DNA of 64,000 nt from Ferrimicrobium sp. (GCF_027319265.1 NZ_DAHVNP010000076.1:62001-126000); one strand, 5' to 3'. Counted from the first letter of the stretch, positions 56,182 through 63,727 are shown. The notes: generated by a model not told the origin, from the sequence alone. Translations and numbers: made by a program.

Positions 56182-57630
56182 TCAGGAACGGGAGTTTGTC
56201 AGCACCGGTATGCGAAGACGAACGAGCGCACCACCCCGCCGTGAATGATCAAAGGTGATCGTACCATCAAGCTGGGTCGTGACAAGGTCACGCACAATGG
56301 CGAGGCCGAGCGACTTTGCGCTCGCTGCAACGAGATCCTCCGGGAAACCGACGCCATCATCACTGATCTCCACCCACAGATCCTTTGGGTGCCGTTCGAG
56401 GACTACCCGAACGTTGAGTGCCTTGCGGTCGTCGCCATAGCCATGCTCAAGCGAGTTCTGAATCAACTCCGCGAGCACGATCGCCAACGGCGTTACTCGC
56501 TGAGCATCGATCCGTTCGGCAGAACCCTCCAGGACCACATCGAGTTCTCGCCCTGGCAACTTCGACTCACGCGCGAGCCGAATCAGCGCCTCAATCACCT
56601 CATCGATCTCCACCTCTTCGGAGATGTCTCGCGAGAGAAACTCATGCACCACAGCAATGGACCGGATGCGGCGTTCTGCCTCGCCGAGCGCCGTCTTAGC
56701 CTCACTATTGGAGAGGCGTCGAGCCTGAAGACTGAGGAGGCTCGAGATGGTCTGCAGGTTATTCTTCACGCGGTGATGCACTTCGCGAATCGTCGCATCC
56801 TTGGAGGCCAGAAGGCGATCCCGTTGACGGAGGTCGGTCACATCGCGCAATAGCAGTACATACCCATTCCCGACGTCACCACGATACAGCGGGAGACAGT
56901 AGAAGGTGACCGTCACCCCGCGCGACTTTTCAACCTCCTCAAAGACTGGCGCTCCAAGTATGTCGGCGCGCTGCAGCGCCTGAATACGGAGCCCTAGTTC
57001 CTCAAGATTCATTCCTACCCGTACACTTGGACACCCGAGCCGGTGCAGCGCGCTCAGCGCGTTCGGTGAAAGAAACCGAATCCGTTCATGGGCATCGAGC
57101 ACGCACACCCCGTCACCAACCCGGGGGGCCTCCTCGACCTCGCTCGGCGGGTAGGGGAAACGGCCATTGATCAACATCGCCATGAACTGATCGAACAGGC
57201 TCAGGTAGGTCGATTCCAACTCTCCTGGGTTGCGATGTCGCTCGCTGAGTTGGTCGCGGATCATCACGCCGAAGACCTCGCCATCCTGGAGCAGGGGGAT
57301 GAACCAGGAGGTGATGTGACGTCCGCTTCGAGGATCGGAACGCGTCTCATGAACGATCTCCCCTCGGTGAAAGCAGCGATAGATTGGCGATCCTTCGGTG
57401 AGGTCAAACTGCATCCCGATCAAATCCCCAGGATGTGCCGTCTGGGAGGTGGCAGGACGCACCTGAGAGACGATGGTGTAGCGCGAGCGCCGACCCTCTT
57501 GGTTTTCGATGGGAAGTGCAATGCTCAGATCGCTGAAACCAAGATCAGCAAGGAACCCCCAAAAGCGCAAGAGCTCGCCGAGATAGGTACGCCGCGAGTC
57601 GATCAGCGAGGCTGCATCCCTCTCCAGCAT
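56182..57630 (-). CDS. pdtaS: Sensor histidine kinase of the PdtaS type
   Basis: A 482-residue soluble kinase. An N-terminal GAF-like domain (about residues 20-150) is followed by a PAS-like domain (about 175-270). The HisKA_2 dimerisation helix REVHHRVKNNLQTISSLLS contains the phosphorylatable His285. The ATP site has LAELIQNSLEHGYG and DDGVGFP. The organisation is that of Mycobacterium PdtaS, which signals to the antiterminator PdtaR. No pdtaR lies in the window. Lack of membrane helices indicates a cytoplasmic sensor. It is followed on the complementary side by the PHP-type gene 2 bp away. Confidence 0.88.
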   Translation of the reverse strand: MLERDAASLIDSRRTYLGELLRFWGFLADLGFSDLSIALPIENQEGRRSRYTIVSQVRPATSQTAHPGDLIGMQFDLTEGSPIYRCFHRGEIVHETRSDPRSGRHITSWFIPLLQDGEVFGVMIRDQLSERHRNPGELESTYLSLFDQFMAMLINGRFPYPPSEVEEAPRVGDGVCVLDAHERIRFLSPNALSALHRLGCPSVRVGMNLEELGLRIQALQRADILGAPVFEEVEKSRGVTVTFYCLPLYRGDVGNGYVLLLRDVTDLRQRDRLLASKDATIREVHHRVKNNLQTISSLLSLQARRLSNSEAKTALGEAERRIRSIAVVHEFLSRDISEEVEIDEVIEALIRLARESKLPGRELDVVLEGSAERIDAQRVTPLAIVLAELIQNSLEHGYGDDRKALNVRVVLERHPKDLWVEISDDGVGFPEDLVAASAKSLGLAIVRDLVTTQLDGTITFDHSRRGGALVRLRIPVLTNSRS

Positions 57631-57632
57631 GG

Positions 57633-58499
57633 CTAGAGCGCTACCTCGGTGCCCACTCGACCCTCAAAACGGCGTAACGTCGTCACCCCATGGGCCACCA
57701 ACAGCTCTTTGATCTCAGGTGCACGATCAGCGACGTCACCAAGACCGTGGGCATCTGATGCAGTGGTGAGCGGCACCTCGAGCTCAAGAAACCGTCGCAG
57801 CAGCCCGGGAGCGGGATAGAACTCTCTTACCGGTTTGCGCATACCCGCCGAGGAGACCTCCGCGGCTACCCCCGCCGTGGCCGCCGCCTCAGCCATGCGG
57901 TCGAAGTACTCCTGGGGCACCTTTGGTCGGTGACCAGCCACCTTCACGAGATCAGGATGCGCGAGTACATCCACGGTATGGGTCGCCGCCAGTTCCTCGA
58001 GTGCTCGTGTATAGGCCGCCCAAGCCGGTTCCACACCTACGCGCTCCCACTCCGCCATCACCACTGGGTCATCGATATGATCGAAGGGCCAGGTCTCAAT
58101 CCAGTGGACGGAGCCGAGCAAGACATCAAAGGGGTATCCGAGCAACATCGCCTGTACCCGGTGCATCGCCTCGGGATAGTAGTCCACCTCAAGACCCATC
58201 ACGACAGGGAGGCCCGCAGCCTTCGCCTCCAGCGCAACAGCGACGTATTGGTCGAGATCGGCAGTAGCATTTTGCTCCCAGTACTGCTCCATGAGATCAC
58301 GCATCGGGCTCTCGGGATAGCGTCGGAAGTAGCCAGACAGAATCGAACGCGCCTGCGAGAAGCGGTAAAAATGCTCCGTCACCGCGATCTCCGACACTCC
58401 CTGCGCGGCCGCATGTTCACAGTACGCCGCCAGCTCTTCGAGTACGACCGGCTTATCTTTGGAGCCATGAGACCAGAGATGGAGATGGTAGTCGATCAT
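57633..58499 (-). CDS. PHP domain metallohydrolase
   Basis: A 288-residue PHP protein. DYHLHLWSHG at the N-terminus and AVTEHFYRF are metal-binding motifs, GLEVDYYPEA and VLAHPDLVKVAG follow, and SDAHGLGDVADR near the C-terminus completes the metal site. This resembles histidinol-phosphate phosphatase of the PHP type, or a nucleic-acid or sugar phosphatase. The gene ends 2 bp before pdtaS begins, so the two are likely co-transcribed. Substrate is unproven. Confidence 0.88.
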   Translation of the reverse strand: MIDYHLHLWSHGSKDKPVVLEELAAYCEHAAAQGVSEIAVTEHFYRFSQARSILSGYFRRYPESPMRDLMEQYWEQNATADLDQYVAVALEAKAAGLPVVMGLEVDYYPEAMHRVQAMLLGYPFDVLLGSVHWIETWPFDHIDDPVVMAEWERVGVEPAWAAYTRALEELAATHTVDVLAHPDLVKVAGHRPKVPQEYFDRMAEAAATAGVAAEVSSAGMRKPVREFYPAPGLLRRFLELEVPLTTASDAHGLGDVADRAPEIKELLVAHGVTTLRRFEGRVGTEVAL

Positions 58500-58679: not shown

Positions 58680-59828
58680 TCAGCCACCCGCTGAATCAAC
58701 CACCGTCGTCGAACGGACCAGTTCCGCCAACGCAATGGGTGAATCTAACGCCAGCTCCGAGATCGGAACTTCGAAAAGATCGATACCCACATCCTGGAGG
58801 GCATCAACGAGTTCACGAGCACGGGCATTGGTGAGTTGCTGGTGCGTGAAGGCCAATTCGGAGGTCGCACGAAGAATGGCACCGGCCACCACCGGCTTCT
58901 CCTCAAAACGAGCCGCCAAGACGCCAGGTGCCTCCTGCTCGAGCCACGCGCGCGCCTGTTCCGCTTGCGGGGTAAAAAGCCGTCCAGGCAGAGAGCGATT
59001 CACGATGAAGGCGAGTGCATGCAAATGACGAGTTTCGAGTGCCCGAAGGAGGCGGTGCGCCTCATCGACTGAAGGGCCGTAAGGAGATGCGATCGCAATA
59101 AACCCGGTTGTCGGCGAGGTCAGGAGCTCCGAAAATGACCTGCTCTGTTCCACCAATCCAGGGCCGAGTTTGGCAAAATCCGCGAAGAAATCCGTCAGAT
59201 CCGTCAAGAAAGCGGAACCGAGCACCATGTCAGCAACGATATAGAAGGGGCGGGTGGCGGCAGAGAAGAGACGCGTCCTCCTCGGGAGGGTCAAGAGCGC
59301 GAGCAGTGGAGAGGAGAAAAACTCACGGAGTCGCGCCGGTGCATCCAAGAAATCAAGGGCATTACGCGACGGAGGAGTGTCGACGAAGACAAGATCATAG
59401 CGATCATCCGCGGTGAGCGCAGCGAGTACCTGCACGGCGGCATAGTCATACGAGCCGATGAACTTCGCTGAGAGGTTGTGATAGATGGGACTCGCTAGGA
59501 TCCTCTCCGATGTTGCGTGGTCCGGGGAGAACTGATGTACAAGATCGTCCCAAGCGCTCTTCATATCGACTGAGGCAGCCCACAACCTTCCCTTGGGAGC
59601 GAGTCCCGGCAGTTCAACCTCACGAGGCGCATTGGCAAGAGCTGCCACCCCAAGGGTGCCAGCCAGCCGCTTCGCTGGGTCGACGGTCACGACCAAGACA
59701 TTGAGTTCTTGCTCAAGCGCAGCGGTGATCGCTAGCGACGCCGCGAGGGTCGTCTTGCCGACGCCACCGCTCCCAACGACAAAAACCCGCTCCCTGGTCA
59801 TCAAGCTCTCAAGGAGCCTTGTCACCAT
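58680..59828 (-). CDS. ArsA/GET3-like ATPase (variant P-loop)
   Basis: A 382-residue ATPase of the ArsA/Get3 family. The P-loop is GSGGVGKTT at 19-27: the deviant Walker A signature lysine (the first K in GKGGVGKT) is replaced by Ser, whereas the partner protein keeps it. VVTVDPAKRLAGTLGV (switch I), FVDTPPSRNALDFL (switch II) and the final AFIVNRSLPG are present. Similar actinobacterial pairs are annotated as anion-transporting ATPases, with no known role in arsenic here (no arsB). The start overlaps the partner's stop by 7 nt (ATGGTGA). Confidence 0.85.
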   Translation of the reverse strand: MVTRLLESLMTRERVFVVGSGGVGKTTLAASLAITAALEQELNVLVVTVDPAKRLAGTLGVAALANAPREVELPGLAPKGRLWAASVDMKSAWDDLVHQFSPDHATSERILASPIYHNLSAKFIGSYDYAAVQVLAALTADDRYDLVFVDTPPSRNALDFLDAPARLREFFSSPLLALLTLPRRTRLFSAATRPFYIVADMVLGSAFLTDLTDFFADFAKLGPGLVEQSRSFSELLTSPTTGFIAIASPYGPSVDEAHRLLRALETRHLHALAFIVNRSLPGRLFTPQAEQARAWLEQEAPGVLAARFEEKPVVAGAILRATSELAFTHQQLTNARARELVDALQDVGIDLFEVPISELALDSPIALAELVRSTTVVDSAGG

Positions 59829-60748
59829 AGCTCCACCTCGAGCACCTCAGCGACCTCGTCGACGAGCTCACGTGTCTCGAGCGCTCCAAAGTACTCTCCT
59901 ACGGTTGCCACCCGTAACGACGGCCCCAATTGATCGACGAAGACTCGGAGGTTACGATCATGCCGATCGCTGATTCTCGCAAAAAGGTCAGAGGCGGCGA
60001 GCACCTCATTCAGGCCAGCGATCGAGTCGCCGAAGGTGCGGATCGCCTCGACTACCTCAGTTTCGACACCCGCCATCGGACCGACAAATCGCCGATTGAC
60101 GACGGCACCTTCAAGACGCACCGGCGTCTCAGCTCGCAACCGTCCAGCGAGATCGAGCGCCTCTTCGATCGGGGTCTCCTCCGGCGTGGCCACCAGCAGC
60201 GCCACCGAACGTTCTGGGTCAGCCAAAATCTCCAGCATCCACTCGGTCTGATTCTTCACGAGTCCAAGCTGGATCAGTTGACCAACGTCACCGGCCACCC
60301 CGAGCTGCGAGATAACGTGTCCGCTGGCAGGAGGGTCAACGACGATCAGATCGTAGGTATCCTGTCGTACCTCATAGCAGAGTTTCCCGATCACCAGAAT
60401 CTCACGCACCCCAGGAGCCGCTGTGGAGACGAAGTCAAAGATCTTGCCGAGTCCGGGAAACTTTGAGATGAACGGCACCTTGACGTAGATACGTAGATAT
60501 TCTGCCAAGGCGGCTTCGGTATCCATCTCCATGACCCAAAGATTCTCTGCGGCGCGCTGTGGCGTGAACGAGGTCTCGGTCAGGCCCAACATCGATCCAA
60601 CGTCGCCCTTGCCATCCACCTCAACGATCAACACCCTCAGGCCTCGGCGTGCGCCTAAGGACCCAAGCGCGGCCGCGATGGTGCTCTTGCCAACACCACC
60701 CTTGCCGGTCACGAAGATCAATCTCTTATGAAGCAACTCCTCAATCAT
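59822..60748 (-). CDS. ArsA/GET3-like ATPase (canonical deviant P-loop)
   Basis: A 308-residue partner of the adjacent ATPase. FVTGKGGVGKSTIAAALG holds the full deviant Walker A (residues 15-23). VEVDGKGDVGSML is the switch I region and VVDPPASGHVI the switch II region. Unlike eukaryotic Get3 it has no CxxC zinc motif visible. The two may form a heterodimer in which this subunit supplies the signature lysine. It lies 3 bp from DUF3107 and is thereby linked to mrp. Confidence 0.88.
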   Translation of the reverse strand: MIEELLHKRLIFVTGKGGVGKSTIAAALGSLGARRGLRVLIVEVDGKGDVGSMLGLTETSFTPQRAAENLWVMEMDTEAALAEYLRIYVKVPFISKFPGLGKIFDFVSTAAPGVREILVIGKLCYEVRQDTYDLIVVDPPASGHVISQLGVAGDVGQLIQLGLVKNQTEWMLEILADPERSVALLVATPEETPIEEALDLAGRLRAETPVRLEGAVVNRRFVGPMAGVETEVVEAIRTFGDSIAGLNEVLAASDLFARISDRHDRNLRVFVDQLGPSLRVATVGEYFGALETRELVDEVAEVLEVELW

Positions 60749-60751
60749 GCG

Positions 60752-60985
60752 CTAGGCGCTAAAGCCAACCTTGCGCTGTTCCTTGTTTGGACCAACCTCG
60801 ATAAAGAGGATCTTGTTGACCGGTACCCCGACCTTCTTGCCCTTACGGTCCGTCAACCACCAGAGTGACTCGCTCCCCGACTGCGCCTTCGCGAACTCCT
60901 CGATCACCTTGGCCTGGTCGGTTCCATCGTCCATCTCTAATTCAATCTCACGCATGGCATCACCGAGCCCAATACGAATCTCCAC
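60752..60985 (-). CDS. DUF3107 family protein
   Basis: A 77-residue protein. EIRIGLGDAMREIELEMDDG at the N-terminus and LWWLTDRKGKKVGVPVNKIL with FIEVGPNKEQRKVGF at the C-terminus match DUF3107, a small actinobacterial protein of unknown role. It is 3 bp from the ArsA-like gene downstream and 9 bp from mrp upstream, so all four genes form one operon. It may bind the ATPases or their cargo. Confidence 0.88.
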   Translation of the reverse strand: MEIRIGLGDAMREIELEMDDGTDQAKVIEEFAKAQSGSESLWWLTDRKGKKVGVPVNKILFIEVGPNKEQRKVGFSA

Positions 60986-60994
60986 TAGTACCTC

Positions 60995-62116
60995 CTACTT
61001 CGCTTGGACCTTGAGATCACTCCGATACCGTCTCACTGGACCTAGACTCTCTAGCCTATCAACGAGTTCGCGCAAACTTTCGCTCGCAAGGTCAGAAGCC
61101 GCCCCAATCACCGCTGGAATCCCTTGATCCCCGCCCTCGCGAAGTGCCATCGTCAAAGGCACCTCTCCAAGCAACTCCACCCCGAGGTCTCCAGCGAGTC
61201 GCGCGCCCCCACCAGAACCAAAGATCGCATAGCGCTCGCCCTCTGGCGTCACAAATGCCGACATGTTCTCGATGACGCCGCGTACCGGCAGCTTGAGCTT
61301 TTTGGCAGCCAGTGCTGACCGCTGTGCGACACGAACCGCCGCCGACTGCGGGGTGGTGACCACAAAAATCTCGGACCGCGGAAGAAACTGCTGGAGGCTG
61401 AGGGCAACATCACCAGTCCCTGGCGGCATGTCGACCAACAGGTAGTCAAGCTCGCCCCAGAGCACGTCGACCAGAAACTGCTCAATCGTCTTATGCAGCA
61501 TCGGGCCTCGCCAGATGACAGGCGTATCCTCCTCGACAAAGAACCCCAACGACATCACCTTCACCCCAAAGGCCTTCGGTGGCAAAATGAGATCGTCGAT
61601 CACCCGAGGCATGCTGGTGAGTCCAAGGAGCTTTGGAATCGAAAAACCATAGACATCAGCGTCCAAGATGCCAACGCGACGCCCTCTTCGTGCGAGTTCA
61701 GCCGCCATATTCGCCGTCACTGACGATTTCCCAACGCCACCCTTCCCCGAGGAAACGCCGATGACGCGCGCCGTCGAACCAGGCAACGAAAAGACGGGCG
61801 TCCGAGTCGTTCGTGCCTCGAGCATCTCCGGTGTCATAAGCCGTTCACGGAGCTGTGCCTGGCCGGCAGGATCCAACGGTAGCAGTTCAACTGTGACTGA
61901 AGAACCGAGTTCGGCAACCGCAGCGTCCGCCTCTGCCTGCAGTCGTTGGGCGACTTCAGGTGCACCACCCACATAGTAAAGTTGTGCGCTGACCCGTCGG
62001 AGCCGCGAACTCACTGGCCCCACGAGACCGAGCTCTTGGAGACTCGCCCCCAGCTCATCATCGATGAGCGATCCCAAACGCTCTAGGACTTGTTCCTGGA
62101 TATCCTTGGCCATCAT
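60995..62116 (-). CDS. mrp: Mrp/NBP35-type iron-sulfur carrier ATPase
   Basis: A 373-residue P-loop ATPase. An N-terminal MIP18-like domain (residues 1-85) is followed by GVSSGKGGVGKSSVTANMA with the deviant Walker A, DADVYGFSIPKLLGL, and LVDMPPGTGDVALSLQQFLP. The usual metal-binding CxxC pair after GVIENMSAFV is absent: the sequence there is TPEGERYAIFGSGG. It may therefore bind a cluster with other residues or act as a non-cluster ATPase. Tandem ATGs start at 62116; AGGAG lies just upstream. It heads the ATPase operon and is divergent from the SufR-like gene. Confidence 0.92.
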   Translation of the reverse strand: MMAKDIQEQVLERLGSLIDDELGASLQELGLVGPVSSRLRRVSAQLYYVGGAPEVAQRLQAEADAAVAELGSSVTVELLPLDPAGQAQLRERLMTPEMLEARTTRTPVFSLPGSTARVIGVSSGKGGVGKSSVTANMAAELARRGRRVGILDADVYGFSIPKLLGLTSMPRVIDDLILPPKAFGVKVMSLGFFVEEDTPVIWRGPMLHKTIEQFLVDVLWGELDYLLVDMPPGTGDVALSLQQFLPRSEIFVVTTPQSAAVRVAQRSALAAKKLKLPVRGVIENMSAFVTPEGERYAIFGSGGGARLAGDLGVELLGEVPLTMALREGGDQGIPAVIGAASDLASESLRELVDRLESLGPVRRYRSDLKVQAK

Positions 62117-62213
62117 TCTCTCCTACCTTGTACCCCAGCACCTCGCACTGAACCTCTCATGACTAAACTAGTGGAACAATACCGCTACCGTCTTGGTGGA
62201 GGGGAAGGCGTCC

Positions 62214-63104
62214 ATGGAAACGACAACACAGTCGACGAAACAAACACCATCATCCACACGTCCACTGGCAAATGTAGATCAGACCGGACCGACGACGGGA
62301 CGACCGCTGCGCGACGACAAGCCGGATCGCGGTCACCGGGAGGCGAAGGACCCACTCTCGAGTTCTTTTACGGGCGCAGTACAGGCACTCTCCCAGGCGC
62401 TTGGGGACCCCACTCGACGCGAAATCTACCTCTACGTACGCGAGCACGGGTCGGTGACTGCCCAGGAGATCGGTCGCCAATTCCAACTACACCCGAACGT
62501 TGCTCGACATCATCTTGACCGACTCGCCGCAAGCGGCTACGTCGAGGCGGGGGTTGACCGCGATGCGACACCGCAAGTCGGGAGGCCCTCGAAACGCTAC
62601 CGAAGCACTGGAGCCCCACTGCTGGTTGACGGTATCGGGGAGCAGGCCGCCCTCCTTGGAAGATTGCTTGCACGTGCACTGGAGATGCTGGATAACCAAA
62701 GCGTCGAACGGCTCGCCTATGAAGTAGGATTCGATTACGGTCATGAGATCGGCCTGCAGATGAATGGTCAGGCCGCCACCAAGAGCATCGCTGCAAGTCT
62801 CAAGTTGGTCGCCGATGCGCTCACCAGAAATGGGTTCTCCTCAAGCGAAGACTCTCGCGACGATTCGCTCGGCCTCAAAAACAGGTCCTGTCCCTTTGGC
62901 AGCCTGGTCGCCGACCATCCTGTCCTCTGTGTTACGGAGAGCGGCATCATCGAGGGATTGCTCGAAAGCCTCGCCATCGATGGGGACCTCGCCCGCGCTG
63001 AGCCAGTCCGAGGTGGCATGAAGGGCTGCGAAGTGCGCATCTACCCGACAACGGAGACCATTGTCAGTATTCAACCACGCCCGGAGCGGACGCCGCCAAG
63101 CTAA
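62214..63104 (+). CDS. SufR-like HTH regulator with C-terminal cysteines
   Basis: A 296-residue regulator. The first 50 residues are polar and disordered (many Thr, Ser, Pro, Asp). The winged helix-turn-helix includes LGDPTRREIYLYVREHGSVT and AQEIGRQFQLHPNVARHHLD. Cysteines are at about 226, 239 and 272: CPFGSLVADHPVLC is a Cys-x12-Cys pair and GGMKGCEVRIY supplies a third. This resembles the Fe-S sensing SufR family. ATG at 62214 follows GGAGGGGAAGG. It is divergent from mrp (97 bp apart) and convergent with the molybdoenzyme (4-nt overlap), and may control the ATPase operon. Confidence 0.82.
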   Translation: METTTQSTKQTPSSTRPLANVDQTGPTTGRPLRDDKPDRGHREAKDPLSSSFTGAVQALSQALGDPTRREIYLYVREHGSVTAQEIGRQFQLHPNVARHHLDRLAASGYVEAGVDRDATPQVGRPSKRYRSTGAPLLVDGIGEQAALLGRLLARALEMLDNQSVERLAYEVGFDYGHEIGLQMNGQAATKSIAASLKLVADALTRNGFSSSEDSRDDSLGLKNRSCPFGSLVADHPVLCVTESGIIEGLLESLAIDGDLARAEPVRGGMKGCEVRIYPTTETIVSIQPRPERTPPS

Positions 63105-63727
63105 CTCCCCCAGTAGCGCTGCTCTTGCCATGGATCGCCGTAGTTATGGTAGCCATTTCGCTCCCAGAATCCGGGGGCATCTGCATCCCGAAACTCAAGA
63201 CCGCGAAGCCACTTCGCCGACTTCCAGAAGTACAGATGGGGTAACAGGAATCGGACCGGATAACCGTGCTCGGGATCGAGCGGCTCGCCGTCGAAGGCGA
63301 CCGCCAACATGCAGATGGGGTCATCCAACGCATCTTGATACGGGATATTGGTAGTAAAACCATACTCCGCATGGGCAATGAGATGGGTGACAGATGACTG
63401 AGGTCGAACCAGATCGATGATCTTGGTGATTGGAATCCCGCGCCAAACGGTGTCAAACTTCGACCATTTGGTCACACAGTGGATATCCGTCGTGCGCTCC
63501 TCGACTCCAAGGTCGACCAGCTCATCATAGCTGAGCTCGACAGGATGCTCAACCAATCCGAAGACGCGCAACGACCATTGGCTTAAATCCGAGTACTGAG
63601 GCACCTCTCCCGCGTGCAACACGGGAAATCGGTCGGTCATGTACTGGCCGGGTGGAAGGCGATCAGGTGCGATGCCCCGTCGTTCCAGCTCCTTCCGATT
63701 GCGATCAAAAAAACTCAAGCGTACCAC
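63101..63727 (-). CDS. Sulfite-oxidase-like molybdopterin oxidoreductase
   Basis: A 208-residue protein of the YedY/sulfite oxidase fold. Cys84 in TDIHCVTKWSKFDTVWRG is the molybdenum ligand. YSDLSQWSLRVFGLVEHPVE opens the fold, then IAHAEYGFTTNIPYQ and YPVRFLLPHLYFWKSAKWL. It carries no signal peptide, so it is probably cytoplasmic or not exported by Tat. Substrate unknown: related proteins reduce oxidised methionine or sulfoxides. It uses molybdopterin without the guanine nucleotide, so MoaA and MoaC at 31 kb, not MobA, supply it directly. Confidence 0.87.
   Translation of the reverse strand: MVRLSFFDRNRKELERRGIAPDRLPPGQYMTDRFPVLHAGEVPQYSDLSQWSLRVFGLVEHPVELSYDELVDLGVEERTTDIHCVTKWSKFDTVWRGIPITKIIDLVRPQSSVTHLIAHAEYGFTTNIPYQDALDDPICMLAVAFDGEPLDPEHGYPVRFLLPHLYFWKSAKWLRGLEFRDADAPGFWERNGYHNYGDPWQEQRYWGS

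Follow-up and report, generated by a model that had tools for sequence, protein, structure and literature searches.

Get3/TRC40, the tail-anchored targeting factor, carries a Zn-binding CxxC at its homodimer interface, and in dimers of deviant-Walker ATPases the nucleotide of one subunit is acted on by the signature lysine of its partner. In M. tuberculosis, the Rv3679/Rv3680 heterodimer has been named BagAB, and the phenotypes reported for mycobacterial bagAB concern glycerol, nitric oxide (NO toxicity) and citrate (PMC10597346). In the Mrp proteins studied so far, a bridging cluster is bound by the CXXC, which is required in vivo (PMC6345978). SufR acts as the suf repressor in the species studied so far (PMC6034842, PMC11995493); the M. 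tuberculosis protein binds an Fe-S cluster and needs C203, C216 and C244 for function (PMC6034842), and the S. avermitilis SufR site reads CAAC-N6-GTTG (PMC11995493). M. tuberculosis PdtaS, finally, is a sensor of NO and copper (PMC8131098). Here, we describe a locus at which genes of these kinds are neighbours and which is probably an Fe-S-homeostasis neighbourhood in the form it takes in Acidimicrobiia, combining a SufR-type regulon with an ATPase operon whose products would include a BagAB2 heterodimer.

The locus lies in a window of 64,000 nucleotides (the whole stretch of DNA that was analysed) from a 2.88-Mb draft genome and comprises the following features:

56182..57630, minus strand: PdtaS-like histidine kinase (PF12282 GAF_PdtaS and HisKA_2), the conserved downstream partner
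57633..58499, minus strand: PHP-domain, histidinol-phosphatase-like gene, downstream, in the same position in part of the relatives
58680..59828, minus strand: bagB-like Get3/ArsA-fold ATPase, 382 aa, Pfam ArsA_ATPase 78.9 bits
59822..60748, minus strand: bagA-like Get3/ArsA-fold ATPase, 308 aa, Pfam ArsA_ATPase 87.9 bits
60752..60985, minus strand: DUF3107 protein, 77 aa, PF11305 60 bits (cut-off 27)
60995..62116, minus strand: mrp, Mrp/ApbC-like P-loop ATPase, 373 aa, PF10609 289.8 bits
62117..62213, no strand: divergent mrp/regulator spacer, defined on the sequence
62160..62174, no strand: TGACTAAACTAGTGG, a degenerate, N3-spaced operator candidate with the same letters in two close relatives
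62214..63104, plus strand: SufR-like winged-HTH regulator (HTH_20 and MetOD1) with three cysteines

The bagB-like and bagA-like genes overlap by 7 nt, the bagA-like gene and DUF3107 are 3 bp apart and DUF3107 and mrp 9 bp, and the ArsA_ATPase (both ATPases), DUF3107 and Mrp/NUBPL matches all passed their Pfam cut-offs. A preliminary description of this DNA had presented mrp, DUF3107 and two ArsA/GET3-like genes as contiguous and divergent from a winged-HTH gene, and its coordinates and gaps were right. The regulator likely starts at ATG 62214 rather than at TTG 62193, given the SD-like GGAGGGGAAGG ahead of the former, which is largely kept in two close relatives. Scans for sigma-70-like promoters and terminators returned nothing above shuffles. 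Beyond the regulator, a molybdopterin-binding oxidoreductase gene (window 63101-63727) runs convergent with it and overlaps it by 4 bp; some other members of the order likewise have such a gene next to the regulator. At the opposite end, the PdtaS-like kinase (56182-57630) has a single cysteine (C86) in its GAF region, so that the dicysteine motif of M. tuberculosis PdtaS seems to be absent here.

Across the class Acidimicrobiia, this gene arrangement is found far beyond chance. By coordinate comparison, DUF3107 adjoins a bagB-like gene in 43 of 109 class genomes, with DUF3107 present in 78 and a bagB match in 79 of the 109 searched. The gene order was found again in 45 fetched loci, and pdtaS follows bagB, directly or past the PHP gene, in 42 of 45 (57 fetched). 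Among the 57 loci, the regulator is divergent from mrp in 38, DUF3107-BagA-BagB occurs in 38, a NifS/IscS-type cysteine desulfurase follows the regulator in 30, and a WhiB gene stands on the opposite strand after pdtaS in most. The prevailing order has the regulator, with the cysteine desulfurase behind it, reading away from mrp, DUF3107, bagA, bagB, an occasional PHP gene and pdtaS. A few members of the order show an inversion of mrp and the regulator, which puts the regulator at the head of the operon. Besides, one family (f18; L039, L040, L055, L060) keeps mrp-bagA-bagB-pdtaS with no DUF3107 detected between mrp and bagA. DUF3107 loci sampled outside the class had no bagAB or mrp neighbours. 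Synteny is thus kept across Acidimicrobiia, and a random distribution in relatives, one of the refuting outcomes named in the preliminary description, is excluded. In 10 genomes, bagAB is absent and DUF3107 is directly followed by (PHP-)pdtaS, the locus being otherwise intact, from which it follows that bagAB is an optional insert between DUF3107 and the PdtaS kinase and, being optional, no core part of the regulon.

The two ATPases each match one chain of a single heterodimer solved from M. tuberculosis: the best PDB match of the bagA-like protein was 6bs3_A, that is, Rv3679 (E 2.5e-23), and that of the bagB-like protein was 6bs3_B, the partner of Rv3679 (E 2.8e-42). As had been noticed at the outset, one partner keeps the signature P-loop lysine (bagA-like, GKGGVGKST) and the other lacks it (bagB-like, GSGGVGKTT); it is also absent from the M. 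tuberculosis B chain (GAGGVGKTT). Motif counts over class sequences gave the signature lysine in 0 of 61 and the Walker lysine in 61 of 61 BagB, with DPA and DTPP switch motifs among the motif strings listed, while for BagA (46 class sequences taken in) the readable sequences had the signature lysine in 44 of 44 and the Walker lysine in 41 of 44. Because the signature lysine works in trans, this complementary conservation predicts one competent ATPase site, located in BagB and completed by BagA, and the finding that three BagA lack the Walker lysine and none the signature lysine fits a single BagB site. At three loci (L081, L083, L090), a second-type BagA has its Walker lysine replaced (KGGVGSS, KGGTGRS) and its signature lysine kept, and may represent a natural ATPase-dead BagA. 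The earlier claim was of an obligate heterodimer; homology to the Rv3679-Rv3680 complex and complementary motif conservation together lend good support to heterodimer formation as such.

Both ATPases scored below the NCBIfam equivalog cut-offs NF053621 and NF053622 (220.6 of 521 and 132.5 of 400 bits), which makes the window pair a relative or paralogue rather than an equivalog. Many class genomes hold two kinds of BagB, as found in the class search. In a BagB tree with several long branches, and with the M. tuberculosis sequence entered as a segment from a PDB alignment, the DUF3107-linked BagB make up one side of a branch (support 98/88) and M. tuberculosis BagB groups with a second, WhiB-adjacent set (100/99). 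The genes of this second kind are located at another site, and in several genomes a WhiB gene reads away from them. On phylogenetic grounds, we assign the window pair (BagA2 and BagB2 hereafter) to a separate, DUF3107-linked paralogue clade, with the M. tuberculosis type found elsewhere in the genome. In the source genome, a second bagAB pair of M. tuberculosis type sits at G000:C49:101326-102396 (L077). Behind it come genes for a response regulator and a NUDIX-like protein, and its divergent neighbour falls into a cluster (c24) of which the member scanned is a WhiB. The closest named match of the window BagB came from a Ferrimicrobium MAG (82% identical), and a contig scan with this protein returned two close relatives only, one of them labelled Ferrimicrobium; the source is therefore probably a Ferrimicrobium-like organism within Acidimicrobiaceae.

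These data bear on whether bagAB2 has anything to do with its neighbours beyond sharing their regulation. It might encode a general Get3-like ATPase, e.g. for membrane proteins or the envelope, that was inserted by chance into a SufR-regulated operon and has no Fe-S role. This would agree with the optional nature of the insert (the 10 loci without bagAB), with the other BagAB locus elsewhere beside WhiB, and with the glycerol, nitric oxide and citrate phenotypes of mycobacterial bagAB (PMC10597346). However, the place between DUF3107 and PdtaS is held across many families, and this kept position, along with the linked BagB forming one side of a supported branch, suggests selection for position. 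We consider a purely co-regulated, unrelated ATPase possible, though on the unlikely side. An ArsA-type arsenite pump pair, as the Pfam ArsA_ATPase matches in both proteins might imply, is hardly credible, with BagA and BagB as best matches and none of the annotated neighbours being an ars gene; we rejected it since the metal-site cysteines are missing (no cysteine in the bagB-like and one in the bagA-like window protein). A CxxC is absent from the window pair and was found in 0 of 46 BagA and 3 of 61 BagB of the class.

The preliminary description had further proposed that the whole set forms a metal or Fe-S targeting system, and the sequences lend this part no support. The Walker A of the window Mrp (GKGGVGKSS) fits the deviant GKGGhGK[ST] pattern; the protein contains zero cysteines and no CXXC, and upon alignment to a solved Fe-S carrier, the cysteine-bearing stretch of the carrier corresponds to TPE-G in the window. 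A CxxC was flagged in 0 of 51 class Mrp, some of these being partial or unreadable in the usual segment. The window DUF3107 has no cysteine either; its PDB matches were 7RUR (TB9.4), 7RUS and 9NIP, the last of which was deposited as Small RNA-Binding protein, a label taken from the PDB molecule name alone, and no function was found in papers on DUF3107. A dedicated machine in which Mrp, DUF3107 and the two ATPases bind and hand over metal or Fe-S clusters could draw on the homology of Mrp to Fe-S carriers and on the cysteine desulfurase and SufR-like regulator adjoining in relatives. Yet it would have to operate with cysteine-free Mrp, BagB and DUF3107 and a single cysteine in BagA, although studied Mrp proteins need their CXXC (PMC6345978), with a DUF3107 that resembles a protein deposited as RNA-binding, and with a BagAB that is dispensable in 10 genomes. 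Such a machine appears improbable.

The regulator scored 39.8 bits with HTH_20, marking an ArsR-like winged HTH. Its AF2 model matched ArsR/MarR folds at weak E-values and in the wHTH part only, and the fold search with this model matched nothing to the cysteine domain. The Cys-x12-Cys pair seen initially is real (C233 and C246, counted from TTG 62193), but a third invariant cysteine, C279, had been overlooked; all three are invariant in 34 of 34 class homologues, in the pattern C-x12/13-C-x~32-C. The homologues examined in other classes likewise keep all three cysteines, and some lie directly beside sufB. Those heading a suf operon in large actinobacterial genomes scored lower, at 50-69 bits, than a set of homologues from another class that read away from sufB (about 150 bits). 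The cut-off of the SufR model TIGR02702, which is cyanobacterial, was missed (21.9 of 178.8 bits). The source genome has one copy of the regulator at E <= 0.01, and within 18 kb around its suf genes (L110) no SufR-like gene was found beside them. Three-Cys HTH homologues that are more distant (L203, L204, L208) occur outside Acidimicrobiia, again in divergent orientation to an Mrp-like gene.

A conserved dyad, ACTA/CCTA-N6-TAGT, occurs in the divergent spacers of the regulator. In 23 of 34 loci, the regulator-mrp spacer contains TATTNTACCTA-N6-TAGNGGAAAT, with 14 or more of the 19 specified bases and up to 19 of 19 matching, where shuffles reach 15 of 19 at most. When up to 3 mismatches were allowed in 20 genomes, 36 matches were obtained versus 1 for the reversed pattern; those outside mrp spacers that were fetched lay immediately before sufB or sufC-sufS-sufU. 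Because these genomes also supplied the motif, its matches in mrp spacers arise by construction and the suf matches alone are independent. Counting overlapping variant matches twice, the core pattern gave 67 versus 5 in 20 genomes of which nearly all have the regulator; in 20 genomes that lack it the figures were 10 versus 19, hence no enrichment. G027, which has a distant regulator homologue only, yielded no operator match. In the source genome, 3 of 4 core matches precede sufB, sufD and sufC and are candidate operators. Among the matches examined, one other (L161) was near no suf or locus gene. The suf cluster is split there (G000:C30:49000-67000, L110), sufB being set apart from sufD-sufC by a two-component pair, a trypsin-like protease and an enoyl-CoA hydratase-like gene, all apparently unrelated, and each suf segment has a separate candidate operator. 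We found no earlier description of a SufR operator or regulon for Acidimicrobiia in a literature search. The WhiB gene at the far end of the locus might raise the idea that another factor, of the Rrf2 or WhiB type and unrelated to the regulator, binds the dyad. This is very unlikely: the dyad lies in the spacer of the regulator itself, shows enrichment where the regulator is present and none where it is absent, does not occur in G027, and shares its N6 spacing with the S. avermitilis SufR site (PMC11995493).

The window's own mrp spacer contains no intact N6 operator, its best class-matrix score equalling the shuffled median. It does hold TGACTAAACTAGTGG (ACTA-N3-TAGT), which has no class-matrix score and is unchanged in two close relatives, weak evidence because these relatives are so close. 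Control by cluster status, as originally suggested, is thus supported at the class level by the three-Cys signature and by candidate operators at suf promoters, including those of the source genome, but the dyad in the window's mrp spacer is degenerate and shorter-spaced. With no intact site there, this very operon is no more than a possible member of the regulon.

The Fe-S-homeostasis neighbourhood that we favour builds on sequence features, namely gene families, motif complementarity, synteny, the three cysteines and operator distribution, from which we infer heterodimer formation in this species, cluster binding, the direction of regulation and a chaperone role. In this model, a SufR-type repressor, with an ArsR-like winged helix and three cysteines as putative Fe-S cluster ligands, would face the operon mrp-DUF3107-bagA2-bagB2-(PHP)-pdtaS. 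With clusters in sufficient supply, the holo-repressor would occupy the ACTA/CCTA-N6-TAGT dyad at suf promoters and, in most of the class, also at the promoters of mrp and of its own gene; once clusters became scarce or damaged, joint derepression would ensue. The heterodimer of BagA2 and BagB2 would be asymmetric, a single ATPase site being competent: BagB2 would contribute its Walker lysine, switch-I Asp (DPA) and switch-II (DTPP), while the signature lysine would come in trans from BagA2. Under Fe-S, oxidative or nitrosative stress, BagAB2 most likely serves as a chaperone for clients or as a targeting ATPase, in the manner of Get3, and not as a cluster carrier; we favour such a stress role with moderate confidence, given that M. 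tuberculosis PdtaS senses NO and copper and that mycobacterial bagAB is tied to glycerol and NO toxicity. In the simplest terms, the locus reads as a SufR-type regulon that also takes in an operon of ATPases, a kinase of PdtaS type and what may be an RNA-binding protein. It is unlikely, by our estimate, that BagAB2 works as a half-of-sites heterodimer of the Get3 type, directly controlled by SufR, which, together with a cysteine-free Mrp and a PdtaS/WhiB circuit, protects or delivers Fe-S-dependent or stress-labile clients; if true, this would be a previously undescribed Fe-S/NO-stress protein-targeting pathway. A BagAB sister pair in one operon with a SufR-type regulator and PdtaS offers a lead to Fe-S or nitrosative stress and, the role of mycobacterial BagAB being unsettled, a first testable lead on such ATPase pairs. 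Likewise, a candidate SufR operator and regulon can now be proposed for Acidimicrobiia, acid-loving relatives of mycobacteria.

Compared with known systems, the window pair shares with M. tuberculosis BagA-BagB (Rv3679-Rv3680; 6BS3, 6BS4, 6BS5) adjacent genes, the same fold family and an A partner with and a B partner without the signature lysine, but differs in having its own BagB clade tied to DUF3107/PdtaS. From Get3/TRC40 it is set apart by the absence of the Zn-binding CxxC. The cysteine-free window Mrp has the deviant Walker A ATPase domain of the Mrp/ApbC/Nbp35 Fe-S carriers and lacks their CXXC. Its DUF3107 neighbour is a family member above cut-off (TB9.4/Rv3208A; 7RUR, 7RUS, 9NIP), yet stands beside bagAB and mrp, unlike the loci sampled outside the class. 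With the SufR proteins of Synechocystis, M. tuberculosis (Rv1460), S. avermitilis and C. glutamicum, the regulator has in common an ArsR-like HTH, three cysteines and, at suf promoters, an N6-spaced candidate dyad. However, the class regulator adjoins mrp, from which it is divergent, and no suf gene; its candidate half-site is ACTA/CCTA instead of CAAC, about 32 rather than 27 residues separate its second and third cysteines, and its candidate regulon is wider, taking in mrp-DUF3107-bagAB-pdtaS.
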